64,000 nt of DNA from the NCBI RefSeq assembly GCF_000150955.2, contig NC_011692.1, positions 310,001 to 374,000 on the forward strand, written 5' to 3'. Below the pieces are notes generated by a model that was not told the origin of the DNA, ran no database searches, and saw only the letters and a list, made by a program, of their open reading frames with translations. Position 1 is the first letter of the stretch. Every line of letters begins with the position of its first letter. The DNA is from Phaeodactylum tricornutum CCAP 1055/1. Its lineage: Eukaryota > Bacillariophyta > Bacillariophyceae > Surirellales > Neidiaceae. This document shows, piece by piece, positions 32,708 to 47,292 of the stretch. Both the position numbers and the translations under genes were made by a program.

Positions 32708-34356
32708 GAGTATGCAGCGATAATCTATGTCTTTTCTCGAAAGCTGTTTATTGCGGAGCTTATATGCACTGCGCACGCATACAATAGGTACACAACGCTG
32801 TCGAATCGTTTTTACTACTAGTTAGTTGTATGCCCTCTGTCACCTTACTCTCGTGACATTCGTGCTTCTAGTGGCTTGCAAAGAAACAGTATATTTTTTC
32901 AGCCTATACTCCTTTGGGTCGAACGAAAAACAAGAGCAAGTCTACGGGGATGACATCTTCCGGACTTCACTTTGCGCTTAGAAAAAGCGAAAGGAAGATG
33001 ACTGTGCGCCACCAGCGCAACTTGGTATGCAAGCTTTTTTCCGAATGGCGTCAAAAGTAATCGTACTCGCGTCTCTCATGCCAGGTGAGCAAACGCTATC
33101 ACGAGTCAATAGGGAGCTCGTTTTTAGTCAACTGTAAGTGTTAGGTCTCAAAGTCGGTAACTTACTGTTAACTGATAGCTTTCGCGGCCTACCCACGGAG
33201 ATCAATCAGAATTCTTCTCAATTGATAGATGGGATCCCAAAGAGATGTGAGCCCTACCGTTTTGTAAGAGTTTCGCAACTCCGTCTTGTTTGAGACAGCC
33301 ACTACTAGGTAGGAGAATTGTTCACAGACTATGTAGTACGCGGAGTTGGCGGCTATGTTTGAATGCAATCCCCAAAGATGACACTTCAGACATCAAAAAG
33401 TGTACGTTTAGGTCCTCTCTACAGATCCATCTTCAAAAGTCCCTCCCGCCTCGATTGTTCGACGAAAATAGAACTGTTTAGTACCTATCCATTGTCTCAG
33501 ACATAAATCTGAAGTTCTTTCACAATTTACGACATTCCTCTTTTACACACCCATTGATGGGCGGACGAGAACGTGATATAAAAAGAACGTCAAATTGTGA
33601 GAGCTATCCTTGCTGGAAATTTTGAAAATTCACATAAAGGTATTTTAGCCTTGCAGATACACATAAAGGGAGGGCGTGGTTCACTTAACAAAAATAGGCG
33701 GAGTACATATTCAATACAGCGTGACATTTAGTAGCCAATCATTGTAAAGAGAGGCTGTGCGATCTCCTACCATTCGCTCGACTCCGAGAGGTTTCATTTC
33801 CCAAAATCCCTTGCAGCAAGGAACGGGTTCATCCTTGTCGTTCGCTTTTCAAGAAGGTAAGTTGACGGTTTCGGCGTTTCCGTCGTCCACTCGCCTTTCT
33901 ATTGCATCGGGTAAGAACAAGGGTGCTGAAAATGATACATCGAAAGCTGTTTTTGCGGAAGAAGCGCGTTGGTGGGACTGCCATGGTCGACGTACGCATG
34001 GGGTCCATGGGGTGCGCCGCTGCCGATGCGTGCGTTTCCTATGTGCTCTTTTTTACTGAGTAAAGGAACCCACTGGGCCCGAATCGTGACATGACTAAAC
34101 TGGTCACGAAATAGCGATGTCTCGCATCATCCTTTGACACGGCAATCTCTGATACTCCGCATAAACGTTCAGGACGAGAAGTAGCTCTGGAGGTTCAAAT
34201 GCGCTCCACGCTGATACAACATGTGCCAGGGATTGTTGCTGGAATGATATCGTCCGTTCGCTCAGTCAAATAGCCCTTTTGTAGCGTCGTCCATTTCGAT
34301 TTGAATGCCGTGGATACTCACGATACAACCCTTGTCTTTTTTCCACCTATTGCGGA
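32708..34356. other. Longest gene-poor stretch, no supported gene
   Basis: 1.65 kb without a convincing gene. The largest open frame (33757-34059, plus strand, 100 codons, MRSPTIRSTPRGF) lacks domain features and ends in an odd Cys/Arg-rich tail. It may instead be 5' UTR or promoter of the zinc-finger gene, or hide small exons. No repeat or RNA gene recognised. Confidence 0.4.
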
Positions 34357-36441
34357 ATGAACTATCGCAGTCTGCCTCATAATCTCGGCTACGCTTGGGA
34401 CTCGGGCACTCTTCACTCTCTGAGAAATATGCTACCAATGCACGTAACGATGTCAAGTCCTCCCAACGATCTGCGTAACGTGTCTGACGATCGCATCAAT
34501 CTTCAAGATATTCGTCATTCCCGTACTGAGCTACGATACGAAACCACGATGGATGGAGATGTTGCATTTGTCCATCCTTCTACTTCCTATGAAGATTCCA
34601 TTGATCGTTCGAAGACGCCAACACATTCTCATTTCAAGCCCCAGGACTGGCAGGCAAGAAGCCCTATTGGTGACTCGAAGGAGAGTGATCACGAACTCCG
34701 TAACCCTTCTTCACCACCCAAAGAGGAGCGTCGTAGACCTCGCCATGAGCGAAATTTATCGGCACAATTTTTTGAATCGACCTCTTTGAGTGACCGCGAG
34801 CCTGACATGTTCAAGGACGAGGGCGACGCCCTGACTGGGCGGAAGCACCGCCGCATGTTCTCCGGGGGTGTCAGTAATCCTCCACAAGCCCATCGACGAA
34901 TGAACTCCATCGGAAACTCGCACGCTGTCCAACGTCAACATCACCATCGAGTCAATAGCGCAGGCTTGGATATTCTGTCTGCAGCTGTAGCTGTCACCAA
35001 GGACGAACTCGAAGGTGCCACAGGAGGCCCTATACCCGTGGCACCGTGGGATCCGCCGCACCAACAAGAGCGACCGTCTATTGGACAAGTATCGACGGGT
35101 TCGTTTGAGCAGCCATATTCCGCTCACCACGTAGGCATGAACCCTCCCCCACAACGACGTGCAGATTCTCACCCACACCGACAACGTTACATGCAACAGC
35201 AGCCACCACCACCATCAAGCGGTCCGTATCATTCCCACTACCAAGGTTATCATCCGCATCATTCCTATCCGTACTACCAGCAGGTTGGATATCCCGCACC
35301 CCCAAACCATTCACCGCCGCCGCACGAATATCCCGAACAATATTCGCAACGCCATGGAATGTACAGAAGCTATCCTTCACAGGAGCCGCACCCGGGCGCA
35401 AATAGATCTAGCCAAGGTCGCAATACTCCACCGACTCCTCCGGAGTGGAGCCGACATTCATCGACTCAGGGATCTCAGACTTTTGTGACAGCCATGGCTG
35501 TAGGGACTGGCAATCGCACGATGCATGCTTCGAGTACGCTCAAAAATGCCGGTACGAATACGGAAGAACGGCCTCCCTCCGAGGTACGGCACCACCGCAA
35601 AATGTCATCCTTAACGAGTCTAGGAACGATCCTTGGTTCATCTGTTTTCCCTGGTAATGCTACGGAGCCAGTCCCGAAGGGACGTCACCATCGTCAGACT
35701 TCTTCAAGTGTCTCGTTCCTCCAAGGCATCGATGTTGGACTAGAAGGCAACGACGCTGTATTTTTGCGAAACCTACAAGCGTCCAACTCGCTAAATCCGC
35801 ATTATGGAACCTCTATTCCGGAGGGACTATCGGATCACGATGACGATCCTGATTCAAAATCTTCTATGCACGGGTCTCGGTTAGCTTCTGGCGGTACAAG
35901 CAAACGAGTTCGTCGCAAATGTACGGTGGCCAACTGTCCGAATCGTGTTGTACAGGGCGGTCGCTGCATAACCCACGGAGCTAAGCGCAAAACCTGCAGA
36001 CACCCGGGCTGTCCCAAGAATGTCAAAAAGGCAGGCCTCTGCAGCACCCATGGCCCCGCCCGGAAAAGGTGTGAGGCTCCGGGATGTGAGAAGGTTGCCG
36101 TGCAGGCAGGAAGATGTATCGCGCACGGTGCAAAAAAGAAGCTTTGCGTTGTAGAGAACTGTACAAAGCAAGCTATCCTATGCGGTATGTGCAAGAAGCA
36201 TCACGATCGGAGCTCAGCCGATGGACGTCGTGGGGACTCGACCGCCGAAAGTGACTCCTCGCAACAGTATTGCCAGGAAGTGCCGCCTGTCCCACGGGTC
36301 AAACCGGGTCACACTCGAGGACTTTCCATTTTTCAAGAAATTTCTGCCGATACTGTTCAGCATATTTTGGAAGACACGACAACCCCGACCGGAACCATTT
36401 CAGCAGAGCAAGAAACTCAGCCCCGATCGTCTGCCTGGTAA
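34357..36441 (+). CDS. Cys/His-repeat (WRKY19-like) zinc-finger protein
   Basis: Single-exon 694-aa protein. Most of it is low complexity: His/Pro/Gln/Tyr-rich between about residues 190 and 350, Ser-rich elsewhere. Near the C-terminus (about 521-625) are four 25-residue repeats with the spacing C-x4-C-x9-C-x2-H: CTVANCPNRVVQGGRCITHG, CRHPGCPKNVKKAGLCSTHG, CEAPGCEKVAVQAGRCIAHG and CVVENCTKQAILCGMCKKHH, joined by basic linkers (AKRKT, PARKR, AKKKL). This is the zinc-binding array seen in proteins annotated as WRKY19-like in stramenopiles and in plant WRKY19; no WRKYGQK core is present. Nuclear nucleic-acid binding is inferred. The start is the first ATG; later in-frame ATGs (MLPMHVTMSS) are possible. 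Confidence 0.75.
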   Translation: MNYRSLPHNLGYAWDSGTLHSLRNMLPMHVTMSSPPNDLRNVSDDRINLQDIRHSRTELRYETTMDGDVAFVHPSTSYEDSIDRSKTPTHSHFKPQDWQARSPIGDSKESDHELRNPSSPPKEERRRPRHERNLSAQFFESTSLSDREPDMFKDEGDALTGRKHRRMFSGGVSNPPQAHRRMNSIGNSHAVQRQHHHRVNSAGLDILSAAVAVTKDELEGATGGPIPVAPWDPPHQQERPSIGQVSTGSFEQPYSAHHVGMNPPPQRRADSHPHRQRYMQQQPPPPSSGPYHSHYQGYHPHHSYPYYQQVGYPAPPNHSPPPHEYPEQYSQRHGMYRSYPSQEPHPGANRSSQGRNTPPTPPEWSRHSSTQGSQTFVTAMAVGTGNRTMHASSTLKNAGTNTEERPPSEVRHHRKMSSLTSLGTILGSSVFPGNATEPVPKGRHHRQTSSSVSFLQGIDVGLEGNDAVFLRNLQASNSLNPHYGTSIPEGLSDHDDDPDSKSSMHGSRLASGGTSKRVRRKCTVANCPNRVVQGGRCITHGAKRKTCRHPGCPKNVKKAGLCSTHGPARKRCEAPGCEKVAVQAGRCIAHGAKKKLCVVENCTKQAILCGMCKKHHDRSSADGRRGDSTAESDSSQQYCQEVPPVPRVKPGHTRGLSIFQEISADTVQHILEDTTTPTGTISAEQETQPRSSAW

Positions 36442-36646: not shown

Positions 36647-38757
36647 CTAGAGCAGAGATTCACTTTCAGCGAGCCTATCTAATGCCTCCTTTTCAGTGGT
36701 TTTCCCCCTCAGTAAGTTGTCCACGGCATCGTTTGCCTCGATCCGAACTTTGGCAAAAACTTCGGTAGCAACATCGCTGCTCAGGAAATGATACTTGTCG
36801 TGCCGCAGCCGTTGGTGCACAATCCTGTACGCGAACGCGGCGCATCGCGCATTATCAAAGACTCCAATATAGCGTGATCGACCGTTGAAGTAGAGCTGAG
36901 CTTGCCACTTTCCTGAGGGGCGCATCGTAACGCCCCGCGGCAGCGTGGATATGTCGGTCAAATCGATTTCACCCATGTCTACATCCATGACGGGACGCCT
37001 CGCGATGTTTCTGCTATCTTTCTTGACGGGTAATTTCTCAGCCCGCGGAACCCTTTTCTGGAATTCGAGTCTGGGTCGAACACGGGGTTCACGTTGTCCA
37101 CTTTTTTGGCGGGGCGGCTTTGATTTGACTGTTTTGTTGTCCTTGTGTTTCGCTTGTTTGGCAGCATCCTTCGTAGCCGCGGTGCCTCTCCTAGTGTATG
37201 TTTTCCTTGGTTTCCGTTCCGGCACGACGTCCGAATCAACTTTTGTTGGTCCTTCGCGCAACGGCTCTTCCTGAGCAACGCCGTCCAGCCAGATGCCGTG
37301 ACCAATGGTATCATCCTCCGGAATCACGGGCAAGTACGGTGGGCCGTATACTGCACAGTTAGGGACTGCACCAGTGTAAACCCCGGTAGAGTAATCTTCG
37401 GAAAAGACCGGCGTAGTATACAGATGATGAAAGGTCGCGTAGTTTTGATTGAGGCGTCGTGCTTTCTTTCGTCGGCGACTTTTCGTCTTGGCCGCGGCTG
37501 TGGATTCGTGGAGGGCGTCGGCTATGATGGCGTTTAACGACGTCACATCGGCAGACCCCTCCGGCAGAACCAAGGGTGGCGGGGGCATCGCTTCCTTAAC
37601 GCAAGCCACCGTGTTAGTCTCGTCTTTTTTCCTGGTATATTTTTTCTTTTTCGGTTCTGGCTCTCCCGTCGATTGTTCGTGGACCGGTACGGCGGAGATC
37701 GTGGCGGCAACCACGCTAGGAGGGATAGGGTCGTCTTTCCGTTGGGGAGTGGGTGTGTGGCGGACTCGATGTGCCATTCCGCCCCGGGTGTCGGAGGCGG
37801 ATTCCGATTCGGACTCTTTTTTCTTGCGTCGCTCGCGCTTGCTGGGTTTGATAGAGGGTGCACGGGGCTGATTGGTTTCGTCCAAATCCCCCTGTCGGTC
37901 CCGGTGAAAATCGGGATGATGGAAACTGCCTCTATTCCTGCGGGGCAAAATGAGTAGAGATACGAAACCATTGACAATGACGGTGTGAGTGTGTGTGTAT
38001 GTATGTGAGCAAAGTTGGATTGAGTGTAAAATACGGTTTGGTTCGTGGGGTGAAACACGGGAATCCAATCCGAGCAGGGCTCTGACACTATTGTACTACT
38101 TACGGACCGGGCTTCTTTTGTTTGCGAAAGCCGTAGACGTTCAATTGTCGCCGAAGGGAATCAAAATTCCCGTCTGTGAAGCAGGACAACGAGTGTGAGT
38201 GATTCGTGGGACCGTGAGTAGAACGGAATGCATTGTCGGGGGTCGATTGCGGCGTCCCGGTACGTACGGAGAAAGTATTTGGCCAGTATTTGACTCACGT
38301 CGGCACTGCGTTCCTGATGAATGAAGAATCCGGAACCATCCCTGGTCCAGTGGACCAAGTCTGGTCGGGTTAAGCTAACTTCGCGAACCATGGTATCCAG
38401 AAAGAGTCCAAAATTACATCGACACGATTGAGGCAATTTCTTGGATCCCACCGTACTGGGCGAGGCGGTGGACGAGGCGGTCCCCTCCTTGGAGGTTCTA
38501 GGACGACCACGCCGTTTTTTGTCCGACATTGATACGGTGCCGCCTGTAGTAGTATTAGTGGTAGTAATAGTAGTACTGGATCTGGTAGTAGTCGAAGTCC
38601 GCGACGCCGAGAACAAGGGTTGGTTTCGGAGTGTGTCGGACGCGTCGTCACGACGAGGCTCGTGCGATGATGGTGGAACGCGCCACGGAGTCCACGCTCC
38701 CGGAGCGAAGGCGTTCCGGACATGCGACGGATTGTTGTTGTGATTGTGGTTGTCCAT
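36647..38757 (-). CDS. Chimeric transcription factor: AT-hook + HSF DBD + AP2
   Basis: Three exons: 38268-38757, 38104-38173, 36647-37937; GT-AG introns of 94 and 166 bp, phases 1 and 2; 616 aa. The start at 38757 gives MDNHNHNNNPSHV. Residues 80-89 contain KRRGRPR, an AT-hook core. Residues about 115-205 form a heat-shock-factor DNA-binding domain: FLDTMVREV, VHWTRDGSGFFIHQ, ILAKYFL-HGNFDSLRRQLNVYGFRK (joined across intron 1) and, across intron 2, SFHHPDFHRD, the usual end of the HSF domain. The same exon continues in frame through a Lys/Arg/Pro-rich region to an AP2/ERF domain at about 521-575: RGVTMRPSGKWQAQLYFNG, RYIGVFDNARCAAFAYRIV. Nuclear DNA binding is expected. Because exon 3 carries both the HSF end and the AP2 domain, the fusion does not depend on the gene model. 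Confidence 0.88.
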
Positions 38758-40104
38758 TGAGAGACGCAAGCGGACGGACGAGAGTGCCTCTAGGTTTTTG
38801 TAGACGAGACGCCAGGAAGCGCGGGTTGGTCGACCGGTGGGCAACGGGGATCGAAGGAGGGACAAGTGAATGCAATGCACGTTGTCTGTTTTTGGAGGAT
38901 ATGTAAAAAGGGGGTTGTCGGTTTGTGTGGGTGTGACGAAGACAGGGGTAGGGTAAATGGGTAAGAGGGGGGCTTTCCAAGAGCTGCGAGTCGATTGATT
39001 TGGAACTGCACTACCAACCCTTCCACAGTAGTATGAACAGTCCCTGTAGGGTAACTTGTGCATCCACTTCTGAATAGGCCAGGATGGAATGCACAGGGTC
39101 TCGATTCGTTCTCAGACAGTCACAGTCACACAGTCAGCCCGTCTGACGTCTATTACTATACATAGAAGTCGTCTGTACTTTTACAAAAAACCTACCGTCC
39201 TTCAACCGGGGCCGGGGCCGGCCATGGTGGACACACACACACACGCGCAGACTCGGACGATTGTACACCAAGACTCTCGACCAAACCCCCGCAAGTTGGA
39301 ACGGAACGTACGGAAACCGGGCTCGAGGCGCTTCCGACCATGAGAATGGATTTCCACGTACGAGCTGGTACAAAAGCCACGAACGCTGCCACCCACCCCG
39401 CAAAAATGTTGACACATTGTCACTGAATGCATTATTGAATGTGTGTAAGTGTGTGTGTGTGTGTGGGACCGTAGGTTCCCCAACGCAATCCAATACATAC
39501 ACGCAATTCAATAACAACATAGAAAGACACTTTTCTTAGTCAGCAACGACCTCCCCCCTCTTGTTGGGTAGTAGAGAGACCTATTTGTAGGTGACGGTGA
39601 GTACCCAGAGCTGTGTGTGTATGTGCTGTGCACGACCGTTCTCTGGGACCGATCCCAACCCAATGATGTGACCAAAGGTGGACGGAACCGTGTTAGGGTG
39701 GAAGTTCAGCGAAGGTGGGGGAGGGATGGGGTGGATTCGGTTGAGATTCAGCCCAGCAAGTGACACTACATTCTGTAGGATCAGTCAGGGCGGGCTACGA
39801 CGCTTTGTGATGCTGGGGAACGGCCAATTGAATTGCCACGCATGGTATCCGTCCTGTGGGGAACTCGAACTCTTTTTGTATTCCGACCGCGTTCACGCAC
39901 GGTGTTCACTAATCAATTCCTCCGTCGTTCCACCACCGAGATACCCCGCGTGTACTTTGTAAATTTGTTCCGGTATTTTGAATTACGCCATTTTTTCTCT
40001 CACACACGCACACTTGCTCGTATCCGTCCGTTCAAACTCTTTCGTCTTGTGTATTCTCCCCACCCCAGCCCGAACAGCGACAATCACGTCCCACCGCCAC
40101 GACT
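38758..40104. promoter_or_regulatory. Divergent intergenic region, HSF-AP2 and CHD genes
   Basis: 1.35 kb between divergent starts; presumably both promoters. It holds dinucleotide repeats: (AC)7 at 39231-39244 and a TG run at about 39449-39465. Open frames on both strands here are fragmentary and shaped by these repeats. No coding sequence supported. Confidence 0.5.
39231..39244 (+). repeat. (AC)n microsatellite
   Basis: Seven AC units in a row. A complementary TG-rich run lies about 200 bp downstream (39449-39465). Confidence 0.9.
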
Positions 40105-43100
40105 ATGAATCCCGAAACGGGAGGCTCCAGCGACCCCGTCCTGGGGCACGTGCCCCGTAAGAAACTGCCACCGGTGCCCCACGCTCTGACTGCAGCTACG
40201 ACCACTCCAAATAACGCCACGGCCGGAGTGCGCATTGCACCGTTGCTGTCGGCGCCGATTCCTCGTCGTACCGACTTGCCGCTTCCGGCACGATCCCACC
40301 CGCACCCCACACCAGCATACTACCGACCATCCCACACCGACTCGTACCCTCCTTCCCACGATCGCGTCCGGATCAAAAAGAAACCCAAACGAATCGGACC
40401 TCCCGCCGTCCAGATTATTCGGGAAGATCCTTTGATTGTCAAGGTGCGGCTCGCGGGGGTGCCCTTGACGGAAGGCATACCCCGACACCGCGCTAGTCTC
40501 CGCGCACCCAAACGATCCCGACCCGCGTACCAGGAATTGGCCGACACGGATGACGACGACTTTCTCACCGAAGAAGAAATGATTTTGCCCCCGAAAAAGG
40601 TCGAAGCCGCCGACGGCACTGTTGTCGCACCAGAAGTTCACCCCATCGACGCGCCTCTACCGGGGGTCCTCCACACACTCTGGTACAGCCGGGAAGTCTT
40701 TCTCAACGTCTTTGTCCTGGAAAAGATTTGTGGTTGGAAGTCCCGGGCCCGGCTCGAGCTCATCGATCCGGAAGGGACGGTCGTGACATTGACCCGGCCG
40801 GAAGCCGCCTCGTATCAGCAAAAGGCGTTACAGGACGTTGCGTTTTGGAAGGACCCACGGGCCCGCACGGAAGTATCCCGGATACGCCCCACGGCTTGTC
40901 CCGTAGTACTAGCCATGGCCGCGCAAGTTGAAGCCGCCAAGGCTGCCCAAGCAACGGCATCGCAACTACCGGCGACCGACGGCATTCGTCTCCCTCCAAT
41001 CGTACCCAAATACCGTCTCCGCACCGCCCCGGACAATGCACGTGAGGAGCTACTGTTGGTCAAATGGCGGGGTCGTTCCTATTTGCACTGTGCCTGGGAA
41101 CGGCCCGTGGACGTGCAAAACGCCGAACACAACGTTACTGCACGCAACAAAATCAAACGATTCTACCAGGCTCAAGAACTCGCCTTTGGTCCGTCCTGGA
41201 AGCAGGTACTGGAAGAAGAACGAGCAACGGCGGCCAAAATTCACGCGCACGGACAATCCGCGGGTATAGAGGAAGATCCCGAAGCCGACCAAGGGGAAGA
41301 ACACTTTGCGCCGCAGTGTTTGGAGGTGGAACGGATTTTGGCCTGTGACGAGAACGATATGAATCTACAGGTACTGGCCAAGCAGCGAGCCTTGAATCTA
41401 CGGGCGGAACAAGACGACTTGCGACGAAAGGAAACGGAGAATCAGAAATCAACCGCCAGCGATACTGTTGGTGCCGAAGACAGCACGCCAGTGGCAAAGG
41501 TAAACAAACTGGTGGGAGGATTGATTGATGTCGCAAATATGGAACCGGCATGGGATCCCGAAGACAACGTTCGTTACGTCGTCAAATGGAAAGCGTTACC
41601 GTACGCCGAAATTACGTGGGAATACTGGAGAGACATCAAGCAAGATGCCGTAGACCAAGCCGAGGATTTTTGGTATCGACAACGTCCCCCGGACCTGGAT
41701 CAAGTACGAGCCCTCGAAAGTCGTCCGCATCCGCACATTCGAGATTTTCGTAAATTACAAGAGACACCGGTGTTTGGGATTTCGAGTCGTGATCGACCGG
41801 TGGCAAACTTGGGCGACGATACAATTTCGCAATCGAACAACGATGACGACGATGGGGATACGTTCAAGGGATTTCATTTGCGGAGTTATCAGTTGGAAGG
41901 TGTCAACTGGCTTCTGTTCAATTGGTGGAACAAGCGCTCGTGCATACTGGCTGACGAAATGGGGTTGGGGAAAACAATTCAGTCAGCGGCCTTTCTAAGA
42001 GGGCTTCAATCATTGCCGGCAACACAAGTACAGGGTCCCTTCCTGATTGTGGCGCCGCTGTCTCTGGTAAATCAGTGGCAGTCCGAGTTGCGTTCTTGGG
42101 CACCGGATATGAACGTTGTTTTGTACCACGGTTCGGCGGACGCTCGAGACTTTTTAGTGCAGCAAGAGTTCTACTATACGGATCAGTTTGTACCCAAGCC
42201 CACAGCGGTCAAATTGAAGAAGCTGAACGTTACCAAGTTCAGCGTTCTCATCACCACCTACGAAGTCGCACTTAAAGACGTGGCCGTAATTTCAAAAATT
42301 CGGTGGCGGGTATTGATTGTCGATGAAGCGCACCGACTCAAGAATTCGAAAGCACGACTGTTTGAAGAGTTGGCAATGGTGCCTCGAGAGCATTGCGTTC
42401 TGCTAACGGGCACACCGATCGCGAACGCCACCGAAGAGTTGTGGGCACTTTTGCACTTTGCAAACCCGTCCGTCTTTGACGACAAGGACTCCTTCCTGGA
42501 GAAGTTTGGGGAGATGACGGATGCGGCTCAAGTAAACGAGCTGCACAATTTGCTCAAGCCGTATCTTCTTCGTCGCGTCAAAGAGGATGTTGAAAAGTCT
42601 TTGCCTCCGAAAGAAGAAACAATCTTGGAGGTATCGTTGACCCCCATTCAGAAGACTTTCTACAAGGCTATTTACGAGCGCAACACTTCCTTCCTTTTCA
42701 AGGGAACGAAGCCCAGTAATGCACCCAGTCTCATGAATGTTATGATGGAGCTACGAAAGTGTTGCAATCACCCTTACCTTGTGAAGGGCGCCGAGGATAG
42801 AATTTTGAACGAAGCTGCCGCAAAAGTGCAAAAGATGATTGACAAGAATGGGAATGAAGTCCCCATCGACTACGGAAGCCTGTTTGGCGAGCAGCTGGTC
42901 AAGTCATCGGGTAAGATGGTGTTAATGGAAAAGCTCCTCCAAAAGCTTTTTGATGGCGGTCACAAAGTTCTGGTCTTCAGCCAGATGGTCCGCGTATTGG
43001 ACTTACTTGAAGAGCTTCTTAAACTGAAAAGGTACAAATACGAACGGTTGGACGGCTCCACGACATCTTCTGCACGTCTTTCTGCGGTGGATCGCTTCAA

Positions 43101-46100
43101 TCGGAAATCGTGCCAGCGTTTTGTTATGCTGTTAAGTACAAGGGCCGGTGGACTTGGGTTGAACCTGACAGCTGCCGATATTGTTATCATTTTCGATAGC
43201 GACTGGAATCCTCAAAACGACTTGCAAGCCATGGCTCGCGCTCACCGAATTGGGCAAACGAGGGCCGTCCGCGTTTATCGGCTTTTGACAGCTAAAACGT
43301 ACGAGATGCATATGTTTCACAGTGCAAGCTTAAAGCTCGGTCTAGAACGAGCCGTTCTCTCGCAAAATCGTGAGCAAAATGATGAAAGCGACGAGAACAA
43401 GTCGAAACGAGTCAGTGACCGAGAAGCGCAGGCCAAGCAGATTGACGAGCTTCTTAAGAAAGGTGCCTACGACGTTTTTAGAGACGAAGACGATGCCGAA
43501 GCGGAAAAATTCATGGAAACGGATATTGATCAGCTTTTGGAGCACAAGTCAAAGAAAGTTACGTACGGGACCTCAGCTACCTCGTCGTTGGGAAGTGGAC
43601 TAGGAAGTTTCAGCAAGGCAAGTTTTGTGGCCGATACCGCAGAAGGCGATAAAGATGTGGATCTCGACGATCCCGATTTCTGGTCGAAAGCTGTCGGTCT
43701 AGAGGCTCCCGAAGAAATGCCTGAAGACGTTGCTGCTATGATCGATGACGGCATCAAGAGGAGCAGAAAACAGGTCCAAGTTTACGACCCTTACGCTGAG
43801 ACAGCCGAGGCTGAGCAAAGGAAGAAGGACAGAATTGCGATGGAAAAGATGCTAGAGAAAGAGGAGAAAGACCGCGAAAGAATCGAGAAGCAAATAAAGA
43901 AGAAAGAGTACAAAGAAAAGAAAAAACGCGAGCGCGAGCTTCAAAAAGTGCAACAACCGACGGAGAAGCCGTTGTCTTCCAACCCCAAAATAGTCAAGGC
44001 GAAGGTCGAACCCATTAAGGCAGTTGTTGAGCACAAGCCAAAGAAGTCGAAGAAAAATGAGAGGCAACAGGCACTTAGGAGGGCACAAAATGAAGATCCT
44101 GCTTTAGAACGTCTGAAACAAGCTTGGGAGGGCCCGCAGCGCAACCGGGCAACAGCCGCATCGATGCGTTTTGGATTTGGTCGGTTTTGTAAGATCCGGA
44201 GCGAATCCAACTTAACCAGTTTACCTCTCCAGGATCTCGAGGTGTTCACGAGGTCCTGGCTCTATCAGTTGGCGCTACAAGTATGCGTGGCTCTTTTGTC
44301 CAAACTGGAAGATGGCGCTTCTGGAGACAGCATTCGTGCTACGTTACAAGAATGGCTGGGCTTATACAATCGTCGAGAACTCGATTGGTTGTGCGAATCA
44401 GTCAGTTCCGTCATGAGCATTCACTTGGATGTTGAGGCTCGACAAAAATTTCTGCGAATGCCTGTAATCTTAGCGGAGCCAAGCTATCTTGCCGATTTAA
44501 GGCAAGGCGGCGCTTTCCGGGCGTTTCGTCGGATGGGAATCTTGGCGCGCTTCAATAGGGTTATCGAAGAATGCCTTGATTCTATCCTATCAGCCCTAGG
44601 TCACCAAGAACTTGGAAAACGAGGCTGCGCCACCAGTGACTTGTCAACGCTCGACGCAGACTTAAAAGCTCGGTTTGTAACAACAGAGGAGTTGGCTCTG
44701 GCTATCGGATCAATTTTTACAAGCCTGAAGTTTAAAGCCCCGGCTTCATGGTGGGATCGTAGGTGTGACGTAGCATTGATAATCGGAACCTTTGTCCATG
44801 GAATGGGAAACTATGAATCTATGCGGAATGACCCCGACTTGCCCTTCTCGGATAAAATTAAGAAGACAGCACAGCGGGATGAAGCTTGCAAAGCGGCAAA
44901 CCAAACTTTTCGTTCCGCAGCGACCGCAGCCAGGAAAGCCTTTGACGACGCGTTAGAAGCTGCCCGTGTCAAAGCAGAGCTGGAAGTACAGGCAGCGGTT
45001 GCAGCTGCAGCCAAGGCTGCGCAGAAAAGAGAAGCTGACGCGGAGCTCTTGCGGAAAGGAGGGGCTGCAGCTGAGGCTGTCATCAGCAGTATGCCAGATA
45101 CTCAGGTTGAAAATGCTTTTGAGTTTGACGGAACGGATTCTCATTTTGTGACGCTTCCTCGAATGCAAAGGTATCTTCAGGATTCTGTTCGGAAAGCTGA
45201 GGTTTCTAGTATGGTATCTGCAGAAGCAAAAGCCATAACTGACACAGTCAAAAACGGAACCTCAGCTAAAGAGGACCATGATGAATTGTCCGGAAAGGCC
45301 CGTGAAGATCGATATCTTCCAATGCCAGATGCGAGAGTCCTAGACCATCGCTTTCTTCTTGTACTCGAGGCGATTGAAGAGCACTTCTATGACGACGATA
45401 CCGACAAGATGGATGTTGACGAGGCCAACCCGGACCTTTGGCTGAAGTCTGATGATGTGCTGACGAACCTCCAAATTCGGACGCAGACTCTGTCAATTTT
45501 TGCAGGCGCTGCTGTTGTGGACTTTATCAGCGAGTACTCGGGAGTAGGTCTTGGTGGCAACCAATGCGGAACTTCTCATCGGAGTTTGAATGACGGTACT
45601 GACTTCGGCTTCGGATCAGCTAGCTCTGAACTTGCACAGGTTGCGTACGGAACAGATGCGCCGCGTTTCTTGCGTGCCCTAGGGGTCCCGATGAACATTA
45701 CACGGTACGCAATTTCGGGGCTCGTATACGCGGAACCTTCATGCGTCGAGAAGTTACTACAGACAGAAAACCTACGTTACTTTGGGGATGCTTCGTCTGG
45801 AGTACCTTTAACTTCAACAGTGGAAGGTATACTTTCCCCCAAGGCTGCCACCTTGGGGGAAAGTGAAGACCAACAAGACTCAAAGGAAACAAGCTCAAAG
45901 TCAGCCAAACCACATACCAATATGAATACACCACTAACGGGGGAGCAAAATGGTGACAACTATTCCGAGTCGAGTCCATGTATTTCCGGTAAAACGGATT
46001 CCAAGGAATCTGTACATAATGGTACTGCTCTGGTTGTTCCTAATGATGGAGAAAATTCGAATCTAACAATTCGTCCGAGTCAAGATATTAGCTTGCCTGG

Positions 46101-47292
46101 CAGCAAACCAAACACAGAAACCTCGGCGAATACACGACTCAGCGACGCTGGCGAGATCACGTCCACTATGTTGGATACACTTGATAAAGACCTGACGCTT
46201 CAAAAGGAATGTACGGTAGAAACCAAACAGCTGCAGGAGAAAATGGAGATCAAGGAGAATGAGTTAGCTGAGGGAAACGTCATGATTGATCTACTTCACG
46301 CGACGGGAGAAGAAGCGAAGCCCTCTCTTCCAATAGATCCAGTCGAACTCATTACCGATGCATTCCGCGAAAATGCGAAACTTCGAGCGGCCACTTGCTT
46401 GGCTGTTCTGATGTTCGGATTCCCCACCATCGAAGGAATGGAAACTTTTGTCGATGACGTCCTTTGGAAAACTGTGCTTACCTCTTCTGGGACTCAAACG
46501 TCACCTCCCCCTCTATCATTATTTACTATTGAAGCTTTTCGTCGAGCGCTTGTGTCGTTGGCCCCTGATGTCGAGATACCTAGTTGTGAGACTTTGAAGA
46601 CCTATGTCGATTCTATCTTGCTGCCACATTGCTTAAGATTATGCATCTATGGCAATGGACCCGTGACGCGGAACGCACGAGGTAGTGAAGGAAAGTACGA
46701 AACTGCTTTTGGAGTAAGCCTGTATCCGGAACCCAGCCAAGCGCACCCGTCTCCTCTTCCGGATCCGTGCTTGAGTCTTCACGAGCACTCCATGGAGGCG
46801 CTGGGGCAAGCTAGTGCTTTGTTGCGCCGAGTACGGCTTCTACGCTCGAGTCAGTTCATCTGTCGCGGTGAATCAATCTCGGTAGCTGCTCTCGTTTCTG
46901 TAACTCGCTCTTCATTTATGCGAGCTCTCGAAGGAATGCCTGTTTGGTGGTGCCCCTGGATCCATGATTTGGCTCTGCTTGTCGAAGCTGCCACTGGCGG
47001 CCTGTTTTCTGTCATACCTACACGGGGAGAGCACTTTATCTTTTCTCCAGAGGCAATTCAACGCTTTCAGGCCTCGTCCATCCTTGGCGGACGGAAGGGC
47101 GTTTGTCCAGCGAAATTCACACCATCGGATCAAACGAGATGGATCGAGCGCCAATCTCATCAGTTTCCAACTCTGAACCAATTAGAGCGTCGATTGGCCT
47201 TTTTGTGTTCACAAGCCACGACTGACGTCGACAGCGACGATCGATACGATAACCTGCCCATGTTTGATCACGGCGGCTGGCCGCGAAATTAA
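40105..47292 (+). CDS. CHD-type chromatin remodelling ATPase (2395 aa)
   Basis: A single uninterrupted frame of 2395 codons. Order of domains: Pro/Arg-rich N-terminus; two chromodomain-like segments (about 315-355, LLVKWRGRSYLHCAWERPVD, and 489-525, YVVKWKALPYAEITWEYWRD); SNF2 ATPase from about 588 (LRSYQLEGVNWL; ADEMGLGKT at about 614-622; VDEAHRLKN at about 738-746); helicase C lobe (about 949-1052; LVFSQMVRVLDLLEELL, STRAGGLGLNLTAADIV, RAHRIGQTRAVRVYRL); the CHD-typical bridge (FMETDIDQLLE); a Lys/Glu coiled coil; and a SANT/SLIDE-like region (about 1545-1582, WWDRRCDVALIIGTFVHGMGNY). The protein should slide or space nucleosomes in the nucleus, recruited through the chromodomains. The C-terminal 700 residues lack a known domain. 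It lies 373 bp upstream of a class I histone deacetylase on the same strand. Confidence 0.95.
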   Translation: MNPETGGSSDPVLGHVPRKKLPPVPHALTAATTTPNNATAGVRIAPLLSAPIPRRTDLPLPARSHPHPTPAYYRPSHTDSYPPSHDRVRIKKKPKRIGPPAVQIIREDPLIVKVRLAGVPLTEGIPRHRASLRAPKRSRPAYQELADTDDDDFLTEEEMILPPKKVEAADGTVVAPEVHPIDAPLPGVLHTLWYSREVFLNVFVLEKICGWKSRARLELIDPEGTVVTLTRPEAASYQQKALQDVAFWKDPRARTEVSRIRPTACPVVLAMAAQVEAAKAAQATASQLPATDGIRLPPIVPKYRLRTAPDNAREELLLVKWRGRSYLHCAWERPVDVQNAEHNVTARNKIKRFYQAQELAFGPSWKQVLEEERATAAKIHAHGQSAGIEEDPEADQGEEHFAPQCLEVERILACDENDMNLQVLAKQRALNLRAEQDDLRRKETENQKSTASDTVGAEDSTPVAKVNKLVGGLIDVANMEPAWDPEDNVRYVVKWKALPYAEITWEYWRDIKQDAVDQAEDFWYRQRPPDLDQVRALESRPHPHIRDFRKLQETPVFGISSRDRPVANLGDDTISQSNNDDDDGDTFKGFHLRSYQLEGVNWLLFNWWNKRSCILADEMGLGKTIQSAAFLRGLQSLPATQVQGPFLIVAPLSLVNQWQSELRSWAPDMNVVLYHGSADARDFLVQQEFYYTDQFVPKPTAVKLKKLNVTKFSVLITTYEVALKDVAVISKIRWRVLIVDEAHRLKNSKARLFEELAMVPREHCVLLTGTPIANATEELWALLHFANPSVFDDKDSFLEKFGEMTDAAQVNELHNLLKPYLLRRVKEDVEKSLPPKEETILEVSLTPIQKTFYKAIYERNTSFLFKGTKPSNAPSLMNVMMELRKCCNHPYLVKGAEDRILNEAAAKVQKMIDKNGNEVPIDYGSLFGEQLVKSSGKMVLMEKLLQKLFDGGHKVLVFSQMVRVLDLLEELLKLKRYKYERLDGSTTSSARLSAVDRFNRKSCQRFVMLLSTRAGGLGLNLTAADIVIIFDSDWNPQNDLQAMARAHRIGQTRAVRVYRLLTAKTYEMHMFHSASLKLGLERAVLSQNREQNDESDENKSKRVSDREAQAKQIDELLKKGAYDVFRDEDDAEAEKFMETDIDQLLEHKSKKVTYGTSATSSLGSGLGSFSKASFVADTAEGDKDVDLDDPDFWSKAVGLEAPEEMPEDVAAMIDDGIKRSRKQVQVYDPYAETAEAEQRKKDRIAMEKMLEKEEKDRERIEKQIKKKEYKEKKKRERELQKVQQPTEKPLSSNPKIVKAKVEPIKAVVEHKPKKSKKNERQQALRRAQNEDPALERLKQAWEGPQRNRATAASMRFGFGRFCKIRSESNLTSLPLQDLEVFTRSWLYQLALQVCVALLSKLEDGASGDSIRATLQEWLGLYNRRELDWLCESVSSVMSIHLDVEARQKFLRMPVILAEPSYLADLRQGGAFRAFRRMGILARFNRVIEECLDSILSALGHQELGKRGCATSDLSTLDADLKARFVTTEELALAIGSIFTSLKFKAPASWWDRRCDVALIIGTFVHGMGNYESMRNDPDLPFSDKIKKTAQRDEACKAANQTFRSAATAARKAFDDALEAARVKAELEVQAAVAAAAKAAQKREADAELLRKGGAAAEAVISSMPDTQVENAFEFDGTDSHFVTLPRMQRYLQDSVRKAEVSSMVSAEAKAITDTVKNGTSAKEDHDELSGKAREDRYLPMPDARVLDHRFLLVLEAIEEHFYDDDTDKMDVDEANPDLWLKSDDVLTNLQIRTQTLSIFAGAAVVDFISEYSGVGLGGNQCGTSHRSLNDGTDFGFGSASSELAQVAYGTDAPRFLRALGVPMNITRYAISGLVYAEPSCVEKLLQTENLRYFGDASSGVPLTSTVEGILSPKAATLGESEDQQDSKETSSKSAKPHTNMNTPLTGEQNGDNYSESSPCISGKTDSKESVHNGTALVVPNDGENSNLTIRPSQDISLPGSKPNTETSANTRLSDAGEITSTMLDTLDKDLTLQKECTVETKQLQEKMEIKENELAEGNVMIDLLHATGEEAKPSLPIDPVELITDAFRENAKLRAATCLAVLMFGFPTIEGMETFVDDVLWKTVLTSSGTQTSPPPLSLFTIEAFRRALVSLAPDVEIPSCETLKTYVDSILLPHCLRLCIYGNGPVTRNARGSEGKYETAFGVSLYPEPSQAHPSPLPDPCLSLHEHSMEALGQASALLRRVRLLRSSQFICRGESISVAALVSVTRSSFMRALEGMPVWWCPWIHDLALLVEAATGGLFSVIPTRGEHFIFSPEAIQRFQASSILGGRKGVCPAKFTPSDQTRWIERQSHQFPTLNQLERRLAFLCSQATTDVDSDDRYDNLPMFDHGGWPRN

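Follow-up and report, generated by a model that had tools for sequence, protein, structure and literature searches.

Can a diatom gene encode, as a single protein, one DNA-binding domain of the HSF type and another of the AP2 type, and how might such a protein engage DNA? The question is raised by a minus-strand gene (38757-36647) in the window, a stretch of 64,000 nucleotides of Phaeodactylum tricornutum CCAP 1055/1 (NC_011692.1, positions 310,001 to 374,000), where an initial annotation had recognized an AT-hook, an HSF domain and an AP2 domain. The gene encodes an HSF-AP2 fusion as one protein. Judging from its sequence, the product may act as a two-headed DNA-binding regulator in which AP2 replaces trimerisation as the second DNA contact, a reading to which a probability of roughly 0.55 is assigned. 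The features are as follows, with positions counted within the window.

38268..38757, minus strand: exon 1, with the likely ATG at 38757-38755, the N-terminal region, the AT-hook-like motif and the first half of the HSF domain
38174..38267, no strand: intron 1, GT..AG, 94 bases, absent from P0001 (see below)
38104..38173, minus strand: exon 2, carrying the HSF recognition helix (RRQLNVYGFRK)
37938..38103, no strand: intron 2, GT..AG, 166 bases, absent from P0001
36647..37937, minus strand: exon 3, with the end of the HSF domain, the linker, the AP2 domain and the stop codon
38497..38517, minus strand: AT-hook-like motif KRRGRPR, residues 81-87, from pattern and shuffle test
38268..38394, minus strand: HSF DNA-binding domain, exon 1 part (from residue 122), PF00447 at 59.9 bits
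37877..37937, minus strand: end of the HSF domain (NRGSFHHPDFHRDR..), from the PF00447 match
37328..37489, minus strand: conserved linker motif RRxNxNYxTFHxLYTTPVxSEDYxTGxYTGxxxNCxxYGPxYLP, residues 337-390, common to P0004
36800..36946, minus strand: AP2 core domain, residues 518-566, from homology, PDB profile and predicted fold
36710..36778, minus strand: diatom AP2 region, C-terminal helix, residues 574-596 (model helix 70-92), kept across much of the AP2 set

With splice sites predicted from sequence, the three exons were found to join in phase into 616 amino acids, and both introns have GT..AG borders, which bears out the three phase-matched exons of the initial annotation. The last part of the HSF domain and the AP2 domain lie without interruption in a single open frame (36647-38095, 482 residues). 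The two therefore share the exon 3 frame, as had been proposed, while the proposed spacing of 330 residues has to be corrected to about 310-320 residues, occupied by a basic linker. The closest in-frame stop upstream of the gene lies at 39114, so that the start at 38757 is likely, though not proved. The same joined protein was also recovered from another source. The public protein P0001 (494 residues, source lgn) represents a cluster of 33 sequences whose longest contig measures 3611 bases; it aligns to residues 123-616 with three substitutions (residues 445, 454 and 477), spans both junctions (38268/38173 and 38104/37937) exactly as modelled, and then continues in the same frame to the end of AP2. 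An intervening stop or two separate transcripts, either of which had been named as evidence that would speak against a fusion, is thus unlikely. Provided that protein calling in lgn involves no splicing, as we presume, the P0001 contig would be cDNA that was already spliced and that stems from a different strain or allele. Since P0001 starts at residue 123, the first 122 residues and the AT-hook fall outside its support.

The HSF domain was identified by Pfam in the whole protein, with PF00447 at residues 122-207 scoring 59.9 bits against a cut-off of 22. Alignment to the HSFs of the PDB showed that RQLN is kept in the recognition helix LRRQLNVYGFRK, and the wing loop was found to be shorter than in the PDB HSFs compared. 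Other HSF loci of the genome reach at best about 41% identity to this domain over a long stretch. In the searched assembly of this genome (27,450,724 bases, 88 contigs), PF00447 gave 88 exon-level matches and none on C24, the contig that contains the window, presumably because the HSF domain of the fusion is split over three exons. The HSF part of a structure model of P0001 was poor and was not used, which is attributed to an alignment that was not HSF-rich and to the start of P0001 inside the domain.

The C-terminal domain is supported as AP2 by homology, PDB sequence profile and predicted fold. It shares 65% identity with the genome's other clear AP2, the C23 gene (33.5 bits, over the PF00847 cut-off), and its PDB profile matches include TEM1 (E 1.2e-7), AtERF1 (about 6e-5) and WRI1 (9.8e-5). 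In addition, the structure model predicts a three-stranded sheet packed on a helix. An AP2 protein query of the genome returned the fusion gene and the C23 gene, and other searches of it gave weak further AP2 rows on contigs C5, C30 and C7. The core RGVTMRPSGKWQAQLYF.G.SRYIGVFD and the C-terminal helix are shared with other diatom AP2/ERF proteins such as the C23 gene product and P0013 (FisN_16Hh127 of Fistulifera solaris), in neither of which an HSF domain was seen.

Outside these two domains, the AT-hook of the initial annotation is present as an AT-hook-like motif with an RGRP core and basic flanks. The pattern [KR][KR]RGRP[KR] arose in only 2 of 20000 shuffles of the fusion protein (167 of 20000 for the looser [KR]GRP[KR]), and Pfam AT_hook gave no row in the whole protein. 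The conserved linker motif matched the genome once, in the fusion gene itself. It recurs in P0004 (373 residues, 1777-base contig) together with the same AP2 subtype, the identity between P0004 and the fusion being 39% over residues 337-594, gaps included. P0004 was reached through the AP2 search; the linker alone as query returned only P0001, because the search needs shared five-residue words.

In canonical HSFs, trimerisation through the HR-A/B coiled coil raises affinity. An HSF oligomerisation domain is named in PMC12899012. In the fusion, no HR-A/B-type heptad repeat was detected by the sequence test: the best four-heptad score was 1/8 a/d positions over the 123 residues after the HSF domain, and 3/8 over residues 208-515. 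Three HSFs of the same genome (L001, L004 and L005) scored 8/8 in the first of two heptad tests. The controls comprised 16 HSF-labelled loci, among which L017 duplicates L002, and were processed by two scripts with different motif filters. The first test left out nine loci without the motif (L003, L006, L007, L008, L016, L019, L021, L022 and L023); the second also left out nine (L001, L003, L004, L006, L007, L016, L019, L022 and L023), scored L021 at 5, and met in L008 a tail of 24 residues, below the 28-residue window.

Taken with the layout of the protein, namely an AT-hook-like motif, an HSF domain, a long basic linker with a conserved motif, and a C-terminal AP2 with an extra helix, these features are consistent with two DNA-binding heads in one chain. 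Because the RQLN recognition helix is retained, the HSF head would read a GAA-type half-site, and the AP2 head would read a second site other than the GCC-box. AP2 proteins of Phytophthora infestans were reported to bind sites differing from the plant ones (PMC11267843), and only three of nine AtERF1 DNA-contact positions are identical in the PDB profile alignment, so that GCC-box binding is not expected of the fusion. Both heads together might then supply what HR-A/B trimerisation gives canonical HSFs in affinity and specificity, and a partner may dock on the conserved linker motif. A single-chain HSF-AP2 protein without a trimerisation repeat would offer a clean, testable case of an HSF domain working without trimers, and likewise of a lineage building new regulators by joining DNA-binding domains.

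Several observations weigh against this two-headed reading. Searched with Pfam at E<=1, the full-length protein gave no AP2 row. The fusion gene was likewise missed when the genome was scanned with PF00847 at E<=10, and the excised AP2 region scored 16.7 bits against a cut-off of 33.3; the AP2 identity therefore had to rest on the other evidence given above. The three of nine AtERF1 DNA-contact positions kept make DNA binding by AP2 uncertain. No HSF domain was found in the 373 residues of P0004. Furthermore, low heptad scores were also obtained for L002 (0), L020 (1) and L024 (3 in the first test, 0 in the second), and no specific HR-A/B region was reported for kelp HSFs (PMC12899012), so that the missing heptad repeat need not be tied to AP2.

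The HSF genes of this genome were also seen to split among themselves, with L002, L020 and L024 lacking an HR-A/B-like repeat and L001, L004 and L005 having a perfect one. By sequence, diatom HSFs may thus divide into trimerising and non-trimerising sets.

The distribution of the architecture was examined in 178 distinct AP2 relatives, drawn from the best 120 of 231 and the best 120 of 193 matches. Among the matches listed, the co-occurrence of PF00447 and AP2 proposed as a check by the initial annotation was found in two of the 178, P0001 and P0137, PF00447 being taken from precomputed annotation, and the fusion's own HSF domain as query found only P0001 among the matches listed. On viral contigs, 57 and 2 stretches fitted the patterns, and none encodes a relative. 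The public protein P0137 (431 residues, one member sequence) carries HSF upstream of AP2 in a single frame, as the fusion does. Its HSF match amounts to 42.9 bits in two stretches (one whole and one partial by eye), and its C-terminal AP2 core, identified by homology, is 62% identical to that of P0001 and gave no Pfam row. It differs from the fusion in a degenerate HSF recognition helix without RQLN (TNELVSYGF), alongside a well-kept AP2 core, and in the linker motif, which was not found in it.

P0137 also stands apart in the AP2 tree. The 150-row tree had long branches and few columns; a 39-row tree was built from 38 of its rows, picked by hand, plus the C23 gene. In the latter, a 99/97 branch sets the divergent clade of the fusion AP2 (P0001, P0004, P0007, P0008, P0036, P0041 and P0081) apart from other diatom AP2/ERF proteins, with P0137 on the opposite side. 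This placement suggests, without proving, that P0137 represents a second, separate HSF-AP2 fusion event. Forcing P0001, P0004 and P0137 together lowered the log-likelihood by 17.58 and was not rejected (p-AU 0.111), and two independent fusions are therefore not put forward as demonstrated. The broader idea that diatoms joined HSF and AP2 more than once, and that the resulting class, with AP2 standing in for trimerisation, reads an HSF half-site and an AP2 site as a composite element, is speculative and rather doubtful.

Against the two-headed regulator, the alternative deserving most attention is that one head only reads DNA, either with a working AP2 and an HSF domain that survives as a relic or serves protein interaction, or with the roles exchanged. 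It is less probable, yet a serious contender. The lost RQLN of P0137 beside its preserved AP2 core fits it, as does the difference in conservation within the fusion, where the AP2 core is nearly invariant in the retrieved set and the HSF domain reaches about 41% at best against the HSF loci of the genome. However, the fusion's HSF retains RQLN and scores well above the Pfam cut-off, and its AP2 core has been kept although most AtERF1 contact positions are gone.

It is unlikely that the fusion is a recent, species-limited and perhaps neutral event in which HSF exons landed upstream of an AP2 gene. P0004, with its linker and AP2 and no HSF in 373 residues, would agree with such an origin, as would the lack of any other HSF-bearing member of the P0001-P0004 clade among the 178 relatives listed. 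The 1777-base contig of P0004, however, may lack the upstream exons or leave them unspliced, and the exon 3 frame of the fusion gene alone would likewise show only an HSF tail; the 33 sequences in the P0001 cluster also speak against this origin. An artefact, in the form of an assembly join or a wrong gene model, is very improbable. The splice sites are indeed inferred from sequence, and the single contig behind P0137 could be a chimera, but the HSF tail and AP2 lie in one uninterrupted frame and P0001 provides the same joined protein from a different source.

That the combination is unusual, as first claimed, holds as far as searched: of the 178 relatives listed, the two named above carry PF00447, and no description of an HSF-AP2 fusion was found among the papers and passages covered, which did not include Rayko et al. 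2010 and Lin et al. 2024. The fusions named in the available part of PMC4827209 do not include HSF-AP2; they comprise HSF-PAS in haptophytes, and bHLH-PAS and bZIP-LOV in stramenopiles, while a kelp HSF, SjHSF-11, is joined with bZIP (PMC12899012). All of these resemble the present protein in linking a transcription-factor DNA-binding domain to a second module, and SjHSF-11 also in joining two DNA-binding domains, whereas their second module is other than AP2. Compared with the HSF family (PF00447), the fusion shares the DNA-binding domain and its RQLN helix, and differs in its AP2 domain and conserved linker and in the undetected heptad repeat, the last also seen in some diatom and kelp HSFs. 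Of 196 transcription factors counted in P. tricornutum, 67 are HSFs, the most numerous family and one that is mostly unexplained, and the same source counts 2 ERFs (PMC4827209); both domains of the fusion may therefore already be labelled in databases. With some 67 HSFs in the species, HSF ancestry alone does not establish a heat or stress role (PMC4827209), and the idea of the initial annotation that the protein could link stress and other regulons is a hypothesis.

Among the AP2 relatives, the diatom-type domain was also observed with PHD (P0121), PF03457 (P0171 and P0178) and PF20710 (P0081), and four AP2 repeats were seen by eye in P0003. By sequence, the diatom AP2 domain looks like a freely combined module.

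The fusion gene is flanked by two plus-strand genes. The convergent neighbour (34285-36441) contains three Zf_WRKY19 (PF24906) zinc-finger stretches at 62.7 bits. In the divergent neighbour (39982-47292), a single open frame of 2436 codons encodes a CHD-type chromatin remodeller with two chromodomain stretches, SNF2, helicase C and a CHD1-like HTH domain.
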